DNA of 64,000 nucleotides from Bradyrhizobium sp. CCBAU 53340. Its GTDB lineage: Bacteria; Pseudomonadota; Alphaproteobacteria; Rhizobiales; Xanthobacteraceae. A program made the translations under genes and the position numbers. This document shows positions 32,528 through 38,667 of the stretch, one piece after another. The stretch covers positions 7,586,501 to 7,650,500 of the forward strand of contig NZ_CP030055.1 of NCBI RefSeq assembly GCF_015291645.1, given 5' to 3'. The first letter of the stretch is position 1. Every line of letters starts with the position of its first letter. The notes beneath the pieces were generated by a model. The model was given only the letters and a program-made list of their open reading frames with translations, did no database searches and was not told the origin of the DNA.

Positions 32528-33637
32528 CTACTCCGCCGCAGCAGCAATGCGCTCCGGAAACGCTGCCGCCAGCGACGCGCGATCCGGCTTCAGCACACCA
32601 CGCTCGGTGATGAGGCCGGTGACAAGCCGCGCCGGCGTCACGTCGAAGGCGTAGTTCGCGACCGGCGAGCCCTCCGGCACGATGCGCACGGTCTCCAGAC
32701 GACCGTCGGCGGTGCGGCCGGTCATGTCCGTGACCTCCACCCCGCTACGCTGCTCGATCGGAATGTCGCGGATGCCATCATTGACCGCAAAATCGATCGT
32801 CGGCGACGGCAGCGCGACATAGAACGGCACGCCGTTGTCGTGCGCAGCGAGTGCCTTCAGATAGGTGCCGATCTTGTTGCAGACGTCGCCATTGGCGGCA
32901 ACGCGGTCGGTGCCGACGATGGCGAGATCGACCATGCCATGCTGCATCAGATGCCCGCCGGTGTTATCCGGAATCACCGTGTGCGGCACGCCATGATGAC
33001 CGAGCTCCCAGGCCGTGAGGGAGGCGCCCTGATTGCGCGGGCGCGTCTCGTCCACCCAGACATGGATCTTGATGCCGCGCTCATGCGCGAGATAGATCGG
33101 AGCGGTTGCGGTGCCCCAGTCGACCGTGGCGAGCCAGCCGGCATTGCAATGGGTCAGCACGTTGACCGCCTCGCCCGGCTTCTTCCTGGCCACGATTGCC
33201 TCGATTAGCGCAAAGCCGTTGGCGGCGATGCCGCGATTGATCGCGACATCCTGCTCGACGATCTCGTCGGCGCGCGCATAGGCCGCTTCCGCCCGCTCCA
33301 CCGGATCGATTGGCGCGAGCGCCGCGCGCACCTCGTCCAGCGCCCATTTCAGATTGATTGCGGTCGGTCGCGCCACGATCAGCGTCTCATAAGCGCGCTT
33401 CAGGGCTACATCAGACGGATCCTCGCGCATCGCCAGCGCCATGCCGTAGGCTGCCGTCGCGCCGATCAGCGGTGCGCCCCGCACCAGCATGTCGCGGATC
33501 GCCACCGCCGCGTCCTCGCACGAAGTCAGCTTCGCGACGACGAACTCGTGCGGAAGCCGGCGCTGGTCGATCGCGCCGACCGACCAGCCGTCACGCTCGC
33601 GCCAGATGCTGCGGAAATGCTTGCCGTCGACCTTCAT
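32528..33637 (-). CDS. mtnA: S-methyl-5-thioribose-1-phosphate isomerase
   Basis: MtnA converts methylthioribose-1-phosphate to methylthioribulose-1-phosphate in the methionine salvage pathway. The 369-residue chain has the eIF2B-like fold and family signatures [32 protein letters not shown] with the catalytic cysteine, the aspartate region [20 protein letters not shown], and a C-terminal [17 protein letters not shown]. It lies 18 bases downstream of mtnP and is surely in one operon with it. Later enzymes of the cycle are not in this window. Confidence 0.95.
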
Positions 33638-33655
33638 GGCGTCATGCCTTTCACT

Positions 33656-34531
33656 TCAAGCGCGCAGCACGCGCCCGGCCACCGCATCGAGCTTCTTCAA
33701 AAGCTCGGGATCGCGCGCCTCGGGCGCCGTGATCAGCGCGGTGTCGAGCGCGCGATCCGACCCGATCGGACACGGCTCATGCTCGCGCGGAAAATCCTTG
33801 GCCAGCCGCGCCACCAGCGCCTTGGCCTTGTCGGCGTTCGAGGTCAGCACGCGGATAATATCCTGCACGGTGACGGCGTCGTGATCGGGATGCCAGCAGT
33901 CGAAATCCGTCACCATCGCAACGGTCGCGTAGCAAATCTCGGCCTCACGGGCGAGCTTGGCTTCGGGCATGTTGGTCATGCCGATCACCGAATAGCCCAG
34001 CGTCTTGTAGGTCATGCTCTCCGCATAGGTGGAGAATTGCGGCCCCTCCATGCAGACATAGGTACCGCCGCGCGCAATCGCGATGCCCTCGGCCTCGGCC
34101 GCGGCTGCCAGATGGATGCGCAGCCGCGGCGAGACCGGGTGCGCCATCGAGACGTGGGCGACGCAGCCCTTGCCGAAGAACGAACTCTCGCGCTTATGGG
34201 TACGATCGACGAATTGATCGACGAGAACGAAGGTGCCGGGCGGCATCTCATCCTTGAAGGAACCGCAGGCCGAGAGCGAGATCAGGTCGGTGACGCCGGC
34301 GCGCTTCAACACGTCGATATTGGCGCGATAGTTGATGTCGGAAGGCGACAGCCGATGGCCCTTGTCGTGACGCGGCAGGAATACGATCGGTAGACCCGCG
34401 ATGGAGCCGCGCCGCACGGGCGCTGAGGGCTCGCCCCAGGGGCTCCTGATCACCTCTTCGTGCGCGCTCTCAAGGCCCGGCAGGTCGTAGATGCCCGAGC
34501 CGCCGATGATGCCCAAAACCGCCTGCGTCAT
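33656..34531 (-). CDS. mtnP: S-methyl-5'-thioadenosine phosphorylase
   Basis: MtnP splits methylthioadenosine, a by-product of polyamine and acyl-homoserine lactone synthesis, into adenine and methylthioribose-1-phosphate. The 291-residue sequence begins VLGIIGGSGIYDLPGLE and contains FLPRHDKGHRLSPSDINYRA, SACGSFKDEMPPGTFVLVDQ, the purine-site YVCMEGPQFST and GMTNMPEAKLAREAEICYAT, all diagnostic. It heads the mtnP-mtnA operon. The 259-base gap upstream separates it from a carrier-protein gene and contains a repeat rather than a riboswitch I can recognise. Confidence 0.95.
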   Translation of the reverse strand: MTQAVLGIIGGSGIYDLPGLESAHEEVIRSPWGEPSAPVRRGSIAGLPIVFLPRHDKGHRLSPSDINYRANIDVLKRAGVTDLISLSACGSFKDEMPPGTFVLVDQFVDRTHKRESSFFGKGCVAHVSMAHPVSPRLRIHLAAAAEAEGIAIARGGTYVCMEGPQFSTYAESMTYKTLGYSVIGMTNMPEAKLAREAEICYATVAMVTDFDCWHPDHDAVTVQDIIRVLTSNADKAKALVARLAKDFPREHEPCPIGSDRALDTALITAPEARDPELLKKLDAVAGRVLRA

Positions 34532-34790: not shown

Positions 34791-35063
34791 TTAAGCCGCC
34801 GCCGCCAGGCGCAGCTGCGTCGCGACCATGCGTTCTAGCGTCTCGACGGACTGGAAGTTCTCCGGCGTGATCTCGGACTGTGGAATGGTGAAGTCGAACT
34901 CGGCTTCGACACCCAACATCAGATTGACCATATCCATCGAGGTCAGGCCGACATCGACGAGCTTGGCCTGCGGGGTGACATCGGCGCCAAGCGAGTTCTG
35001 TTCGAGGATGCCCTTGACCAGCTTGATGATGCGGTTGCGCAATTCGGTATCGAAGGCCTGCAT
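34791..35063 (-). CDS. Stand-alone carrier protein, partner of the amino acid:carrier-protein ligase
   Basis: This 90-residue acyl-carrier-like protein has its phosphopantetheine serine at Ser42 in GLTSMDMVNLML and an acidic recognition helix. A conserved alanine-rich tail ends the protein. It is unlike housekeeping AcpP (DSLD) and diverges from a flavoprotein and an amino acid:carrier-protein ligase gene. In B. japonicum the equivalent small protein (Bsr0959 by memory) is aminoacylated by the neighbouring ligase. It is probably a dedicated shuttle for an activated amino acid; the pathway is unknown. Confidence 0.88.
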   Translation of the reverse strand: MQAFDTELRNRIIKLVKGILEQNSLGADVTPQAKLVDVGLTSMDMVNLMLGVEAEFDFTIPQSEITPENFQSVETLERMVATQLRLAAAA

Positions 35064-35356
35064 CGGCGGATTCCCATCTATCTGTAAAACGATCGAGCCG
35101 GTTGCCGGGTACGATGGGCAAGACGGACCGATCCCGCAATGGGCGTCACCATTACTTCGCGTTTCTTAGTAAACGATGACTCAGATTGTCTGAAAATCAT
35201 GCCGCTTCCAGTTCACTAACGCGATCGCCGAAATCCGGGGGATACGAAAAACCGGGTTTTAACTGTCCGTTCGGAATTGAGCTTCGTTTACCCTCTATTT
35301 CATCGACGAATTTGAATTAAATCCGTAGCCTCATCTTACAAGCAAAGATGGTCGGA

Positions 35357-35395
35357 GGATCGCTTATGTGGCATCGCGAATGATGCCGGCGATCC
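35357..35395 (+). promoter_or_regulatory. Nested stem-loop leader with five-codon ORF upstream of the flavoprotein gene
   Basis: An outer pair GGATCGC/GCGATCC (35357-35363 with 35389-35395) encloses an inner pair GGCATC/GATGCC (35370-35375 with 35382-35387). A GGAG site and ATG at 35366 would encode a five-residue peptide ending at 35383 inside the hairpin. It is 28 bases upstream of the flavoprotein ATG. It may be a 5'-UTR control element; the 359-base gap that contains it is otherwise AT-rich promoter-like DNA with no gene. Confidence 0.4.
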
Positions 35396-35422
35396 TGAAC
35401 GACAAACCGGAGGCGGACGAGT

Positions 35423-36640
35423 ATGAACGTGCGTGAAGCAGTCCTCACTGTCGACGAAACGCAGACGAACCTGCTCGAGCAGGGCCCCTCCTTCATCGAG
35501 CGCGCCGCCCGAACCGCGGCCGTAGCTGCGACCGATGCCGACGGCGTCGATCGCGACGCCCGCTTTCCTCACAAGGCTTTCAATACCGCGCGTGAGCAGA
35601 AACTGCTCGGCGTCATGATCCCGGTCGAGTTCGGCGGCTTCGGCGCCTCGATCTACGATGTCACCGACATCTGCTACACGCTCGGGCGCGCCTGCGCCTC
35701 GACTGCGATGATCTACGCGATGCACCAGACCAAGGTCGCCTGCGTCGTCAGGCACGGCCACGGCATTCCCTGGATGGAAACGATGATGCGCCGGGTCGCC
35801 CGCGACCAGTGGCTTCTCGCTTCCTCCACCACCGAAGGTCAGAACGGCGGCAACATCCGCGCCAGCGCGGCCGCGGTCGACCATGCCGGCGACACCATCT
35901 CGCTGGTGCGCGACGCCACCGTGATCTCCTACGGCGCCGAAGCCGACGGGCTCGTCACCATCGCCCGCCGTGCAACCGATGCGTCAGCATCGGACCAGGT
36001 GCTGCTGGCGCTCGCCAAGGACGATTATTCGCTAAAGCAGACGCAGGGCTGGGAAACGCTCGGCATGCGCGGCACCTGCTCGACCGGCTTCGAGCTGAAG
36101 GTCGATTGTCCCGCCGACCGCGTCTTCCCGGAAGCCTATGACAAGATCCACGCCCAGACCATGACGCCGTTCGCACATCTGTGCTGGTCGTCGGCCTGGG
36201 CCGGCATTGCCGCCGCCGCAGTGACACGCGCGCAAGCCTTTGTCCGCAAGGCGGCGCGTGCCTCCGGCGGCCAGATGCCGCCGGCTGCCGCGCACTTCAC
36301 CGCCGCGAAGATGTCGCTCGCAAAACTTCGCGCGCTGATATCGGCCAATATCGACGCTTTCGCTCGCGCCGAGCATGACGAGCGCGCGCTCGGCTCGCTC
36401 GACTTCCAGTCCTCGATCACACTGCTGAAGGTGCAGGCTTCCGAGCTCGCGGTCGAAACCGTAATGCACGCGACGCGCACCGCGGGCCTTGCCGGTTACC
36501 GCAACGACGGCGAGTTCACCATGGGCCGCCATCTGCGCGACGTGTTGTCGTCGCCAATCATGATCAACAACGACCGCATCCTTGCCAACGCCGCCACCTC
36601 GACGCTGATGAGCGGCGTGCCGGCAAGCCTTCGCGACTGA
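35423..36640 (+). CDS. Acyl-CoA dehydrogenase-fold flavoprotein of the aminoacyl-carrier cluster
   Basis: This 405-residue protein has the dehydrogenase N-terminal and middle domains (GVMIPVEFGGFGASIYDVTD, ASSTTEGQNGGNIRAS, WETLGMRGTCSTGFEL) and a C-terminal 'type 2' helical domain. The usual catalytic-glutamate loop is replaced by RHLRDVLSSPIMINNDRI. Such variants include flavin N- or S-oxygenases as well as dehydrogenases. It is followed after 54 bases by the amino acid:carrier-protein ligase, so its substrate is probably an aminoacyl group on the carrier protein. CGGAGG precedes the ATG. Confidence 0.85.
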   Translation: MNVREAVLTVDETQTNLLEQGPSFIERAARTAAVAATDADGVDRDARFPHKAFNTAREQKLLGVMIPVEFGGFGASIYDVTDICYTLGRACASTAMIYAMHQTKVACVVRHGHGIPWMETMMRRVARDQWLLASSTTEGQNGGNIRASAAAVDHAGDTISLVRDATVISYGAEADGLVTIARRATDASASDQVLLALAKDDYSLKQTQGWETLGMRGTCSTGFELKVDCPADRVFPEAYDKIHAQTMTPFAHLCWSSAWAGIAAAAVTRAQAFVRKAARASGGQMPPAAAHFTAAKMSLAKLRALISANIDAFARAEHDERALGSLDFQSSITLLKVQASELAVETVMHATRTAGLAGYRNDGEFTMGRHLRDVLSSPIMINNDRILANAATSTLMSGVPASLRD

Positions 36641-36694
36641 TTGCGTGGCGACTGAACCAACAAGAACAATTTTCAGATAGCAGGACATCGAACC

Positions 36695-37675
36695 ATGAAC
36701 ATTGCCGTCCTCCCCAATTCGCCCGAGACCGCGCCTGAGATCGTCGATCCGCTCGATCATCTCGCCGACAAGCTGTTCCACCGCATGGGCTCGGACGGCG
36801 TCTATGCCCGCACCGCGCTCTATGAGGGCGTTGTCGAAAAACTCGCCGCACTCATTACCGACCATCGCGAGGCCGGCACCGAGGTGATGCGCTTTCCGCC
36901 TGTCATGAGCCGCGCCCAGCTCGAAAAGTCCGGCTACCTCAAGAGCTTTCCGAACCTGCTCGGCTGCGTCTGCGGCCTGCACGGCACCGAGCGCGAGATC
37001 AACGCCGCGGTGAGCCGCTTCGATGCCGGCGGCGACTGGACCACCTCGCTGTCGCCGGCCGACCTCGTGCTGTCACCCGCAGCCTGCTACCCTGTCTATC
37101 CGATCGCGGCGAGCCGCGGCCCGCTGCCGAAGGGCGGCCTGCGCTTCGACGTGGCGGCCGACTGCTTCCGCCGCGAGCCGTCGAAGCATCTCGACCGGCT
37201 GCAATCGTTCCGGATGCGCGAATATGTCTGCATCGGCACGCCCGATGATGTCGCCGATTTCCGCGAGCGCTGGATGGTGCGCGCGCAGAAGATCGCGACC
37301 GATCTCGGCCTCTCCTTCCGCGTCGACTACGCCAGCGATCCCTTCTTCGGCCGTGTCGGCCAGATGAAGGCGGTGAGTCAGAAGCAGCAGCAGCTCAAGT
37401 TCGAGCTCCTGATCCCGCTGCGCTCGGAAGAGCAACCGACCGCCTGCATGAGCTTCAACTACCACCGCGAACATTTCGGCACGACCTGGGGGATCCAGGA
37501 CGCCAATGGCGAACCCGCCCACACCGGTTGTGTCGCCTTCGGCATGGATCGTCTGGCGGTCGCGATGTTCCATACCCACGGCACCGATCTCTCCGCCTGG
37601 CCCGCCAAGGTGCGGGAGATCATGGGCATGCCCTCGCACGTCGCGGCCGACGCCCATGGCGAAGGCTGGCGCTAG
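36695..37675 (+). CDS. Amino acid:[carrier protein] ligase (class II SerRS-like), type 1
   Basis: This 326-residue homologue of atypical seryl-tRNA synthetases lacks the tRNA-binding domain. It activates an amino acid with ATP and loads it on a carrier protein's phosphopantetheine. The three zinc ligands described for the B. japonicum enzyme fall at the same positions: Cys131 (AACYPVYP), Glu176 (RMREYVC) and Cys279 (HTGCVAFG). The class II motif 3 GCVAFGMDRLAVAMF is clear. From memory, the B. japonicum orthologue (Bll0957) prefers glycine and then alanine. The biological product is not known. Confidence 0.93.
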   Translation: MNIAVLPNSPETAPEIVDPLDHLADKLFHRMGSDGVYARTALYEGVVEKLAALITDHREAGTEVMRFPPVMSRAQLEKSGYLKSFPNLLGCVCGLHGTEREINAAVSRFDAGGDWTTSLSPADLVLSPAACYPVYPIAASRGPLPKGGLRFDVAADCFRREPSKHLDRLQSFRMREYVCIGTPDDVADFRERWMVRAQKIATDLGLSFRVDYASDPFFGRVGQMKAVSQKQQQLKFELLIPLRSEEQPTACMSFNYHREHFGTTWGIQDANGEPAHTGCVAFGMDRLAVAMFHTHGTDLSAWPAKVREIMGMPSHVAADAHGEGWR

Positions 37676-37752
37676 AGCATGATCCGGATCCGAAGGACCG
37701 CGTTAGCGAAAAGTGCGAAGCGGTTTTCCGGAAAGATCATCCTGAAACGATA
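37674..37752. repeat. Interspersed element, 'AGAGCATGATCC...GATCATCCTGAAACGATAG' type
   Basis: The element has inverted ends (GCATGATCCGGATCC and GGAAAGATCATCC) around AAAAGTGCGAAGCGGTTTTCC, a Rhizobiales intergenic element I recognise by sight. It begins inside the ligase stop codon and ends just before the ribosome-binding site of the next gene. It therefore splits an otherwise compact operon. Confidence 0.75.
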
Positions 37753-37791
37753 GACCAAAAGAGGCCGACCATTACCACGGGCAAGACGAGC

Positions 37792-38667
37792 GTGATCCAC
37801 ACCAAGGTCCGATGCCGCGAGATCACCGAGTCCGATGTCGAAGCCATCGCGGACTTGCTGACGCGCGGCTTCGTCGGCCGCTCGCGCAACTACTGGATCC
37901 AGGGTCTGCGCCGGCAGGCATTCCGGCCGGTGCCGGACGGCTATCCGCGCTTCGGCTACATGCTCGACAATGACGGCGAGCCCGTCGGCGTGCTGCTGCT
38001 GATCTACACCACGCGCAAGGACGGCGAAGAGACTGCCATCCAGTGCAATCTGTCGAGCTGGTATGTCGAGCCGGCCTATCGCAACTACGCGCCGCTGCTG
38101 ACCAAGATCGCGCAGCGGCACAAGCACGTGACCTATCTCAACATCAGCCCGGCGGTCTGGACCTGGCCGATCATCGAGACGCAGGGCTTTCGCGCCTATT
38201 GTCGCGGGCTGTTCTTCTCGGTGCCGGCACTGTCCCGCGCCCCGCGCTGGAGCAAGATCGAGGTCATCTCTCCGCACACCAAGCAGATCGAGGGCCTATC
38301 CGAGGCCGAGACCGAGTTGCTGACGCGGCATGCGCGCTACAATTGCCTCAGCCTGGTCTGCCGCACGCCGAAGGGCGTCTTCCCCTTCATCCTGCAAGCA
38401 GTGCGGATTCGCCGCGGTTTCATCGCACCGCCGGCGATGCAGCTGATCTACTGCCGCAGCGCCGCTGAATACGCCGCCTGCGCCGGGCGCATCGGCCGGC
38501 TACTGCTGCGGCTCGGCAAGATCTCGGTGATCGTCGATTCCAACGAGCCCATCCCCGGCCTTGTCGGTATTTATACCGAACGGCGCGGCCGCAAATATTT
38601 CAAGGGCCCGCATCGCCCGCGGCTGGCCGATCTCACCGATACGGAACTCGTGCTGTACGGGCCGTAG
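37792..38667 (+). CDS. GNAT-fold acyltransferase-like protein
   Basis: The protein has about 290 residues. Its N-terminal half looks like a GNAT domain (REITESDVEAIADLLTRGF, GEPVGVLLLIYTTR, SSWYVEPAYRNYAPLLTKIA, WPIIETQGFRAYCRG); the rest is a second, uncharacterised alpha/beta domain. GTG at 37792 is the first ordinary start but has no good ribosome-binding site. A clear AAAGAGG (37758-37764) instead points to ATT at 37771 in the same frame. It follows the ligase and may transfer the aminoacyl or an acyl group in that pathway, which is inference. Confidence 0.7.
   Translation: MIHTKVRCREITESDVEAIADLLTRGFVGRSRNYWIQGLRRQAFRPVPDGYPRFGYMLDNDGEPVGVLLLIYTTRKDGEETAIQCNLSSWYVEPAYRNYAPLLTKIAQRHKHVTYLNISPAVWTWPIIETQGFRAYCRGLFFSVPALSRAPRWSKIEVISPHTKQIEGLSEAETELLTRHARYNCLSLVCRTPKGVFPFILQAVRIRRGFIAPPAMQLIYCRSAAEYAACAGRIGRLLLRLGKISVIVDSNEPIPGLVGIYTERRGRKYFKGPHRPRLADLTDTELVLYGP

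Follow-up and report, generated by a model that had tools for sequence, protein, structure and literature searches.

The window, a stretch of 64,000 nucleotides of the Bradyrhizobium sp. CCBAU 53340 genome, contains a compact four-gene locus. An aminoacyl carrier protein, CP1 (34791..35063, reverse strand; 90 aa, PP-binding match of 28.4 bits), is encoded divergently from three forward-strand genes. These encode an ACAD-fold flavoprotein (35423..36640; 405 aa) with Pfam ACAD N- and C-terminal domains, an amino acid:[carrier protein] ligase that is a Bll0957 orthologue (36695..37675; 326 aa), and a tandem-GNAT-fold protein (37792..38667; 291 aa), predicted from its structural model and its co-occurrence pattern to be an amide-forming acyltransferase. 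Gene content and orientation were as described in an earlier note on this DNA. For the GNAT gene, the GTG start at 37792 was preferred over a TTG at 37528, which overlaps the ligase; the start fell at the same place in 7 of 8 Bradyrhizobium orthologues, as placed by a script that chooses the start nearest to that of the query. Homologues of mtnA and mtnP (IF-2B and PNP_UDP_1 matches) lie at 32528..34531 on the reverse strand.

Conservation of the locus was assessed in 80 loci, the best 80 of 572 relatives in a contig scan. Because only these were retained, the set is nearly all Bradyrhizobium, with the exception by title of one Frankia and one Bradyrhizobiaceae record. The order of the four genes was identical in 80/80 loci, and the GNAT gene was conserved beside the ligase in each of them, an adjacency on which the earlier note had made its reading depend. 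As all 80 of these best-scoring loci hold the order and the GNAT gene is present in all 24 genomes with a ligase of the window type (see below), a chance neighbourhood was excluded. The mtnA and mtnP homologues were found upstream in 76 of the same 80 (best 80 of 572), but in the locus comparison they adjoined only Bradyrhizobium loci of the window type, and their membership of the pathway is not favoured.

The ligase and GNAT genes are separated in the window by 116 bp (37676..37791) containing a dispersed-repeat-like segment (37715-37730), a 16-mer with six exact copies in the genome, compared to none for a reversed control. An operon break at this point was considered and rejected, since the gap, measured between matches, ranged from 16 to 120 bp in the 80 loci and was at most 47 bp in 61 of them (best 80 of 572). 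A palindrome suspected there by eye was not recovered by an inverted-repeat search at the limits set, and a scan for promoters and terminators gave no useful signal (2 promoter-like sites vs. 0.9 expected; 2 terminator-like sites vs. 3.0 expected).

The ligase matched NF005479 with 486 bits (cut-off 357) and consists of the catalytic core alone, with one class II core match over its 326 residues. Its nearest solved structures were PDB 3mey and 4h2s, and that of CP1 was chain 4h2s_C, Aminoacyl carrier protein 1; the two proteins are orthologous to the solved B. japonicum pair. In that pair, the ligase reportedly charges the carrier with a small amino acid, either glycine or alanine. Levels of the ligase and flavoprotein are reportedly raised in a phaR mutant of B. 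diazoefficiens USDA110. The zinc ligands Cys131, Glu176, and Cys279 occupy the positions given in the earlier note and were invariant in 48 aligned ligases (41 of types I and II and 7 of type III, as defined below). Ser42 of CP1 (GLTSMD), the expected phosphopantetheine site, was likewise invariant in 24/24 aligned carriers. Carrier-protein ligases descended from seryl-tRNA synthetase were reported in 2010. Among the matches listed in a literature search, there was no product for carrier-protein ligases and no study of the GNAT gene.

The flavoprotein departs from ordinary ACADs in its active site. Its middle-domain ACAD match reached 15.1 bits, below the cut-off of 33.3, and the ACAD catalytic Glu is absent: the YEG position was Ile or Val in 20/20 aligned sequences, and the IVD-type Glu position, placed by eye, was Ala, Ser, Thr, or Cys. 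The structural model (pLDDT 85) matched ColB1, DszC/TdsC, KijD3, nitrososynthases, and ordinary ACADs; in a comparison with the group D flavin monooxygenases (DszC, KijD3, and DnmZ), which lack the catalytic Glu, TdsC, DszC, and KijD3 stood near the top among the Foldseek matches listed and ordinary ACADs were equally close. The protein is possibly an oxidase or monooxygenase of a carrier-bound amino acid. Were it instead an ordinary dehydrogenase of CP1-bound alanine or of an acyl-CoA, the locus would lead, like the collismycin pathway, to a dehydroamino acid. We consider this very improbable: in CaeB1 of the caerulomycin pathway, Glu372 is required and its substitution by Leu abolishes the product, while the matching ACAD residue is Ile or Val in all 20 aligned flavoproteins, the IVD-type position offers no Glu either, and glycine has no beta carbon.

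The GNAT-fold protein had no Pfam or NCBIfam match, and a precomputed Pfam domain was found in 0 of 120 homologues among the matches listed; its fold assignment is supported instead by the structural model. This was confident (pLDDT 92, pTM 0.88) and aligned to GNAT enzymes, including tandem ones, with modest TM scores (0.34-0.59), single-GNAT enzymes scoring equally high. The pyrophosphate loop of GNAT motif A has the form [RQ]-x-x-G-x-[GA]. Its first Gly was replaced by Ala or Ser in 17/17 aligned sequences, and hence we use the term GNAT-fold protein, rather than treating it as an established CoA-dependent acetyltransferase.

An order-wide survey of 397 genomes divided the ligases into three types. 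Type I, the window type, occurred in 24 genomes (window genome included), which all contained the GNAT gene, in 19 cases within 20 kb of the ligase, and never DUF1839. Type II, the Agrobacterium-like type (45-54% identity), occurred in 64 genomes, and a papain-like DUF1839 gene adjoined it in 64/64; the remaining 7 of 95 ligases were type III. Types I and II each formed one clade in the ligase tree, so these 24/24 and 64/64 counts reflect approximately one old split that has since been kept, rather than 88 independent events. Two ligases, L030 and L035, fell in the DUF1839 clade, yet their loci lacked a detected DUF1839 or flavoprotein gene. Weaker GNAT relatives were present in 13 of the 64 type II genomes, and in a single genome, G635, a strong GNAT occurred together with DUF1839, the two genes lying on separate contigs. 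In a search for type I ligases outside Bradyrhizobium, no plasmid match exceeded 53% identity among the 40 of 94 listed. A class-wide survey of 385 genomes (ligase family above cut-off in 10, any match in 19) served as a source of loci only. The earlier note had proposed the GNAT-like gene for an off-loading or N-acylating step; such a role would fit its replacement of DUF1839, the fourth protein of the sister operons, which was predicted in 2010 to form an amide.

The GNAT gene also tracks a second branch, comprising another carrier (ACP2), an AMP-ligase, and an SDR. In the 397-genome survey, GNAT and AMP-ligase occurred in the same 26 genomes at a GNAT cut-off of 140 bits, which was chosen after the scores were seen; the next score below it was 127 bits, in G730, which has neither the ligase nor the AMP-ligase. 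Pearson correlations between gene pairs, ignoring kinship, ranged from 0.77 to 0.90 over all pairs and were highest for GNAT and AMP-ligase (0.90), while rank correlations, with kinship likewise ignored, showed no difference (GNAT-AMP2 0.71, GNAT-ligase 0.70, ligase-flavoprotein 0.73). The larger gene set consists of CP1, flavoprotein, ligase, and GNAT together with ACP2, AMP-ligase, SDR, and a FATP-like ligase, often accompanied by MetY, MetA, a ThDP enzyme, and an alpha/beta-hydrolase. The window genome has two sets, the second being the fuller. Because of the 26 genomes common to GNAT and AMP-ligase and of this second set, the four-part pathway suggested by the earlier note was rejected: the association of GNAT with the ACP2 branch indicates a gene set of at least eight parts. 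The window locus looks like a reduced form of this larger, scattered set with its second carrier.

Our preferred reading, held tentatively and at somewhat less than even confidence, is that of a pathway with two carriers, of which the window encodes the amino-acid half and in which the GNAT-fold protein is amide-forming. The ligase would load glycine or alanine on CP1, and the flavoprotein may then oxidise or oxygenate the bound amino acid by a route other than ordinary alpha,beta-desaturation. The AMP-ligase, encoded elsewhere in the genome, would load a second acyl group on ACP2, to be reduced by the FabG-like SDR. Finally, the tandem-GNAT protein would form the amide, most likely by acylating the amino acid on CP1 at its amino group with the moiety carried by ACP2; the unrelated papain-like DUF1839 protein would take this fourth place in type II sister operons. 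It is rather doubtful, as a broader proposition, that a free-standing GNAT-fold enzyme, with no need of an NRPS condensation domain, links the acyl group of ACP2 to a CP1-borne glycyl or alanyl group in oxidised form, and that alphaproteobacteria have GNAT or DUF1839 according to ligase type.

Two other roles for the GNAT-fold protein must be weighed against this reading. It could off-load the (oxidised) aminoacyl group from CP1 onto an acceptor amine, for instance on a sugar, as DUF1839 may do in type II systems, and the mutually exclusive occupation of the fourth place (GNAT in 24/24 type I; DUF1839 in 64/64 type II and 0/24 type I) agrees with this. DUF1839 is papain-like, as is BtrH, an ACP:aminoglycoside acyltransferase (PMC10318531), and PMC2922099 describes enzymes of the GNAT fold for which tRNA is the source of the amino acid. 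Off-loading nevertheless leaves the shared 26 genomes of GNAT and AMP-ligase unexplained, and we regard it as unlikely.

Alternatively, the protein might serve the ACP2 branch only, for example in sugar N-acylation, its adjacency to the Bradyrhizobium ligase being incidental to the break-up of the cluster. This is suggested by two of the 26 genomes shared by GNAT and AMP-ligase in which type I is missing (G568 yielded no ligase, and G635 has one of type II), and by the Pearson maximum for this pair, although not by rank. Moreover, distant ACP-AMP-ligase-SDR sets, at 38 and 41% identity, were found on two plasmids of Rhodobacterales, the only plasmid records at E 1e-40; they adjoin glycosyltransferase or other sugar genes, and the acyltransferase present there is of the hexapeptide kind, GNAT being absent. 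Against it, every type I ligase genome has GNAT and none has DUF1839, and GNAT lies directly behind the ligase in 80/80 loci (best 80 of 572), while 9 of the 11 Bradyrhizobium genomes surveyed show no linkage of the branches within 20 kb, the AMP-ligase lying elsewhere. We judge this role to be unlikely as well, and if anything slightly less probable than off-loading. The likely joining step is now testable. The pairing of ligase type with DUF1839 or GNAT, together with the tie between GNAT and a second carrier branch, points to genes for deletion and to a pair of carriers that mass spectrometry could track. These findings also suggest that Bradyrhizobium-type and Agrobacterium-type systems differ in their end chemistry.

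Among known systems, Bll0957 and its carrier from B. japonicum (3mey, 4h2s) are the direct orthologues, with the zinc ligands kept, and the work on them covers the loading step. The Agrobacterium-type operon (CP-ACAD-ligase-DUF1839-GH2) has its first three parts in common with the window locus but differs in its papain-like fourth gene, in a GH2 gene present in 16/19 type II loci mapped, and in having no adjoining GNAT/ACP2 branch; a note published in 2010 predicted that it transfers an amino acid to a surface sugar. CaeB1 and ColB1 of caerulomycin and collismycin biosynthesis are also flavoproteins, with an amino acid tethered to a carrier as their substrate, and ColB1 is a near structural match, but CaeB1 uses a catalytic Glu that the window flavoprotein lacks. 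Tandem-GNAT enzymes (N-myristoyltransferase, glucosamine N-acetyltransferase, and Eis-type enzymes) have the same two-lobed architecture as the window protein, which differs from them in its low identity (approximately 10-16%) and in the pyrophosphate-loop Gly missing from all 17 aligned sequences.

The four genes that an earlier note had proposed as a possible four-part pathway were all recovered at their positions in the window: a carrier protein on the minus strand (CP1, 34791–35063), matching Aminoacyl carrier protein 1 of 4h2s, and, on the plus strand, a flavoprotein (35423–36640), a ligase (36695–37675) and a GNAT-like gene (37792–38667). The genome (8.7 Mb, two contigs) has its closest named records in Bradyrhizobium, with ligase identities of up to 98% among the best 80 of 572 relatives. 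The ligase scored 486 bits against NF005479 (cut-off 357), and its closest solved chain was Bll0957 (3mey and seven other entries), whose substrates we take to be glycine and alanine. The zinc ligands named by the earlier note (Cys131, Glu176, and Cys279) were likewise present, and were invariant across 48 aligned ligases of type I (that of the window), type II (Agrobacterium-like) and the distant type III. Ligases of this kind load Gly, Ala or Ser onto a carrier, according to the available text of PMC9437257. The GNAT-like protein gave no match in Pfam or NCBIfam. Between ligase and GNAT, a 16-mer (37715–37730) had six genome copies vs. none for its reversed control and is probably part of a dispersed repeat.

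Conservation of all four genes, left by the earlier note to comparison among relatives, was examined by a contig search with nine type I ligases as queries. The order CP, flavoprotein, ligase, GNAT was kept in 80/80 loci, with ligase and GNAT matches 16–120 bp apart; these loci were the 80 top-scoring among 572 relatives, and all except two bear a Bradyrhizobium title. Among these best 80 of 572, mtnP and mtnA lay on the opposite flank in 76, and alpha/beta-hydrolase, MetY-like and MetA-like genes lay beyond GNAT in seven; one further locus had the alpha/beta-hydrolase alone and another a ThDP enzyme. The type I arrangement was not found in the available part of the 2010 paper on these ligases. 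A Bradyrhizobium-type locus (ligase 94% identical) was also present in JAUEPE010000033.1, titled Frankia sp. RB7, a title that looks wrong. NZ_JAFCKS010000003.1 (titled B. japonicum SZCCT0153) carried two copies on one contig, each with a ligase 95% identical to that of the window, through either duplication or mixed assembly.

GNAT and ligase alignments, DUF1839 (a papain-like protein) and AMP2, the small AMP-ligase associated with a second carrier, ACP2, each served as a query against one set of 397 genomes from the order. The ligase was found in 95 genomes, split by score into type I (24 genomes, at least 467.8 bits), type II (64, 331.6–403.3 bits) and type III (7). GNAT matched in 48/397 genomes at any score, including all 24 with type I, with more than 150 bits in 22 of these; in the other two (G070 and G527) the larger of two pieces scored 141 and 140 bits. 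Outside type I, matches above 150 bits occurred only in G635 (type II, separate contig) and G568 (ligase not found), and weaker ones in 13/64 type II genomes and nine without ligase. AMP2 was detected in 28 genomes at the limit used and exceeded 380 bits in 26, namely every type I genome (24) plus G568 and G635. These were identical to the 26 with GNAT at 140 bits or more, a cut chosen after the data were seen (the next GNAT genome had 127 bits); the remaining two AMP2 genomes (249 and 218 bits) had no GNAT match. Within one genus of 15 genomes, GNAT, ligase and AMP2 were all present in 11 and all absent from four.

When 42 ligases were placed in a tree, type I fell on one side of a branch (84/93), as did type II (99/96); these counts therefore mostly reflect one old split, kept since. 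This reading is tempered by three families that contain both ligase types (f2, f188, and f200), in which DUF1839 goes with the type, and by 9/11 Bradyrhizobium genomes that retained both GNAT and AMP2, yet not within 20 kb (at least 0.5 Mb apart on the same contig in three, on separate contigs in six). By hand count from coordinates, GNAT and ligase were no more than 20 kb apart in 19/24 type I genomes (separate contigs in the other five), and GNAT and AMP2 in 15/26. Distances compared across 15 or 16 gene sets, with species kinship ignored, gave Pearson correlations of 0.90 for GNAT–AMP2, 0.83 for both GNAT–ligase and ligase–flavoprotein, and 0.77–0.80 for the other three pairs; the corresponding rank correlations of the first three were 0.71, 0.70, and 0.73.

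The window genome encodes the ligase and the GNAT protein twice each (74% and 62% identity between copies, respectively). Its second locus (L026) comprised GNAT, MetA-like, MetY-like, ligase, flavoprotein, CP, FATP-like acyl-CoA synthetase, AMP2 and a FabG-like SDR; a locus (L033) in a genome from the same taxonomic class, though from another order, repeated this set with an added alpha/beta-hydrolase and ThDP enzyme, and several families of the order share much of it. ACP2 preceded AMP2 in 11/11 loci read, overlapping the start of the mechanically called AMP2 ORF in a different frame in L033 and L228. Separate AMP2 regions were fetched for eight of the 11 Bradyrhizobium genomes with AMP2; FATP-like, AMP2 and SDR genes adjoined in all eight, and both regions whose ORFs were listed held an 81-aa ACP2 ORF. 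Because one such region (L227) is present in addition to the second locus, the window genome holds two sets. Two Rhodobacterales plasmids (L225, 11273–14008; L226, 10271–13743) carried a row distantly related to the ACP2 branch, made up of hexapeptide acyltransferase, ACP, AMP-ligase and SDR and lying near a glycosyltransferase or other sugar genes.

The proposal of the earlier note held in part: GNAT is a real partner, but the gene set to which it belongs has two carriers. Amide formation is the best reading of the GNAT step. That it joins an ACP2-borne acyl group to the CP1-bound amino acid is our tentative proposal, somewhat short of an even chance; off-loading by GNAT, in which it would pass the CP1-borne aminoacyl group to an amine acceptor, is less likely.

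The flavoprotein model (pLDDT 85, pTM 0.86) adopted an ACAD fold. Both positions that can hold the catalytic Glu of ACADs lacked it: the YEG position was Ile or Val in 20/20 aligned flavoproteins, and the IVD catalytic-Glu position, placed by eye, was Ala, Ser, Thr or Cys. His101, His252, Trp255 and Trp259 were invariant. VIA-align gave ColB1 as top match, tied with ACADs and monooxygenases, and Foldseek ranked TdsC first, DszC second and KijD3 fifth, with ACADs also close. In the ColB1 homologue CaeB1, changing Glu372 to Leu abolished the product, according to the available text of PMC8149447. We therefore consider it more likely that the bound amino acid is oxidised or oxygenated than desaturated. 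In the accessible part of a study of a B. diazoefficiens phaR mutant at low oxygen (PMC10888616), bll0957 (transcript up 3.0-fold, protein log2 2.5) and bll0958 (3.0-fold, log2 1.7) were among 30 genes up at both levels, with no operon prediction; bll0956 and blr0959, the tags expected from numbering for GNAT and CP, were absent from its main text.

In the 397 genomes, DUF1839 occurred in exactly the 64 with type II ligase, each time on the ligase's contig and 19–461 bp away, and in 0/24 type I genomes and none without ligase. Its match was split in two pieces in 2/64 (G590:C1:2515620-2516545 and G755:C1:1766007-1766916), as was the flavoprotein match in G755 (L136). CP, flavoprotein, ligase and DUF1839 stood in a row on annotated plasmids of Rhizobium leguminosarum, Azospirillum and Mycetohabitans, with a GH2-type gene beyond (two by annotation, the third by tblastn). 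Among 19 mapped type II loci, two of them the source of the queries, 17 had DUF1839 and 16 the GH2 gene; two loci of family f132 with type II-like ligases (L030 and L035) lacked DUF1839 and flavoprotein and had a related hydrolase. From gene order, Atu2574 would be a DUF1839 protein. In the available text of PMC10318531, DUF1839 is papain-like with a suggested role in glycan processing, and BtrH is an ACP:aminoglycoside acyltransferase with a papain-like domain.
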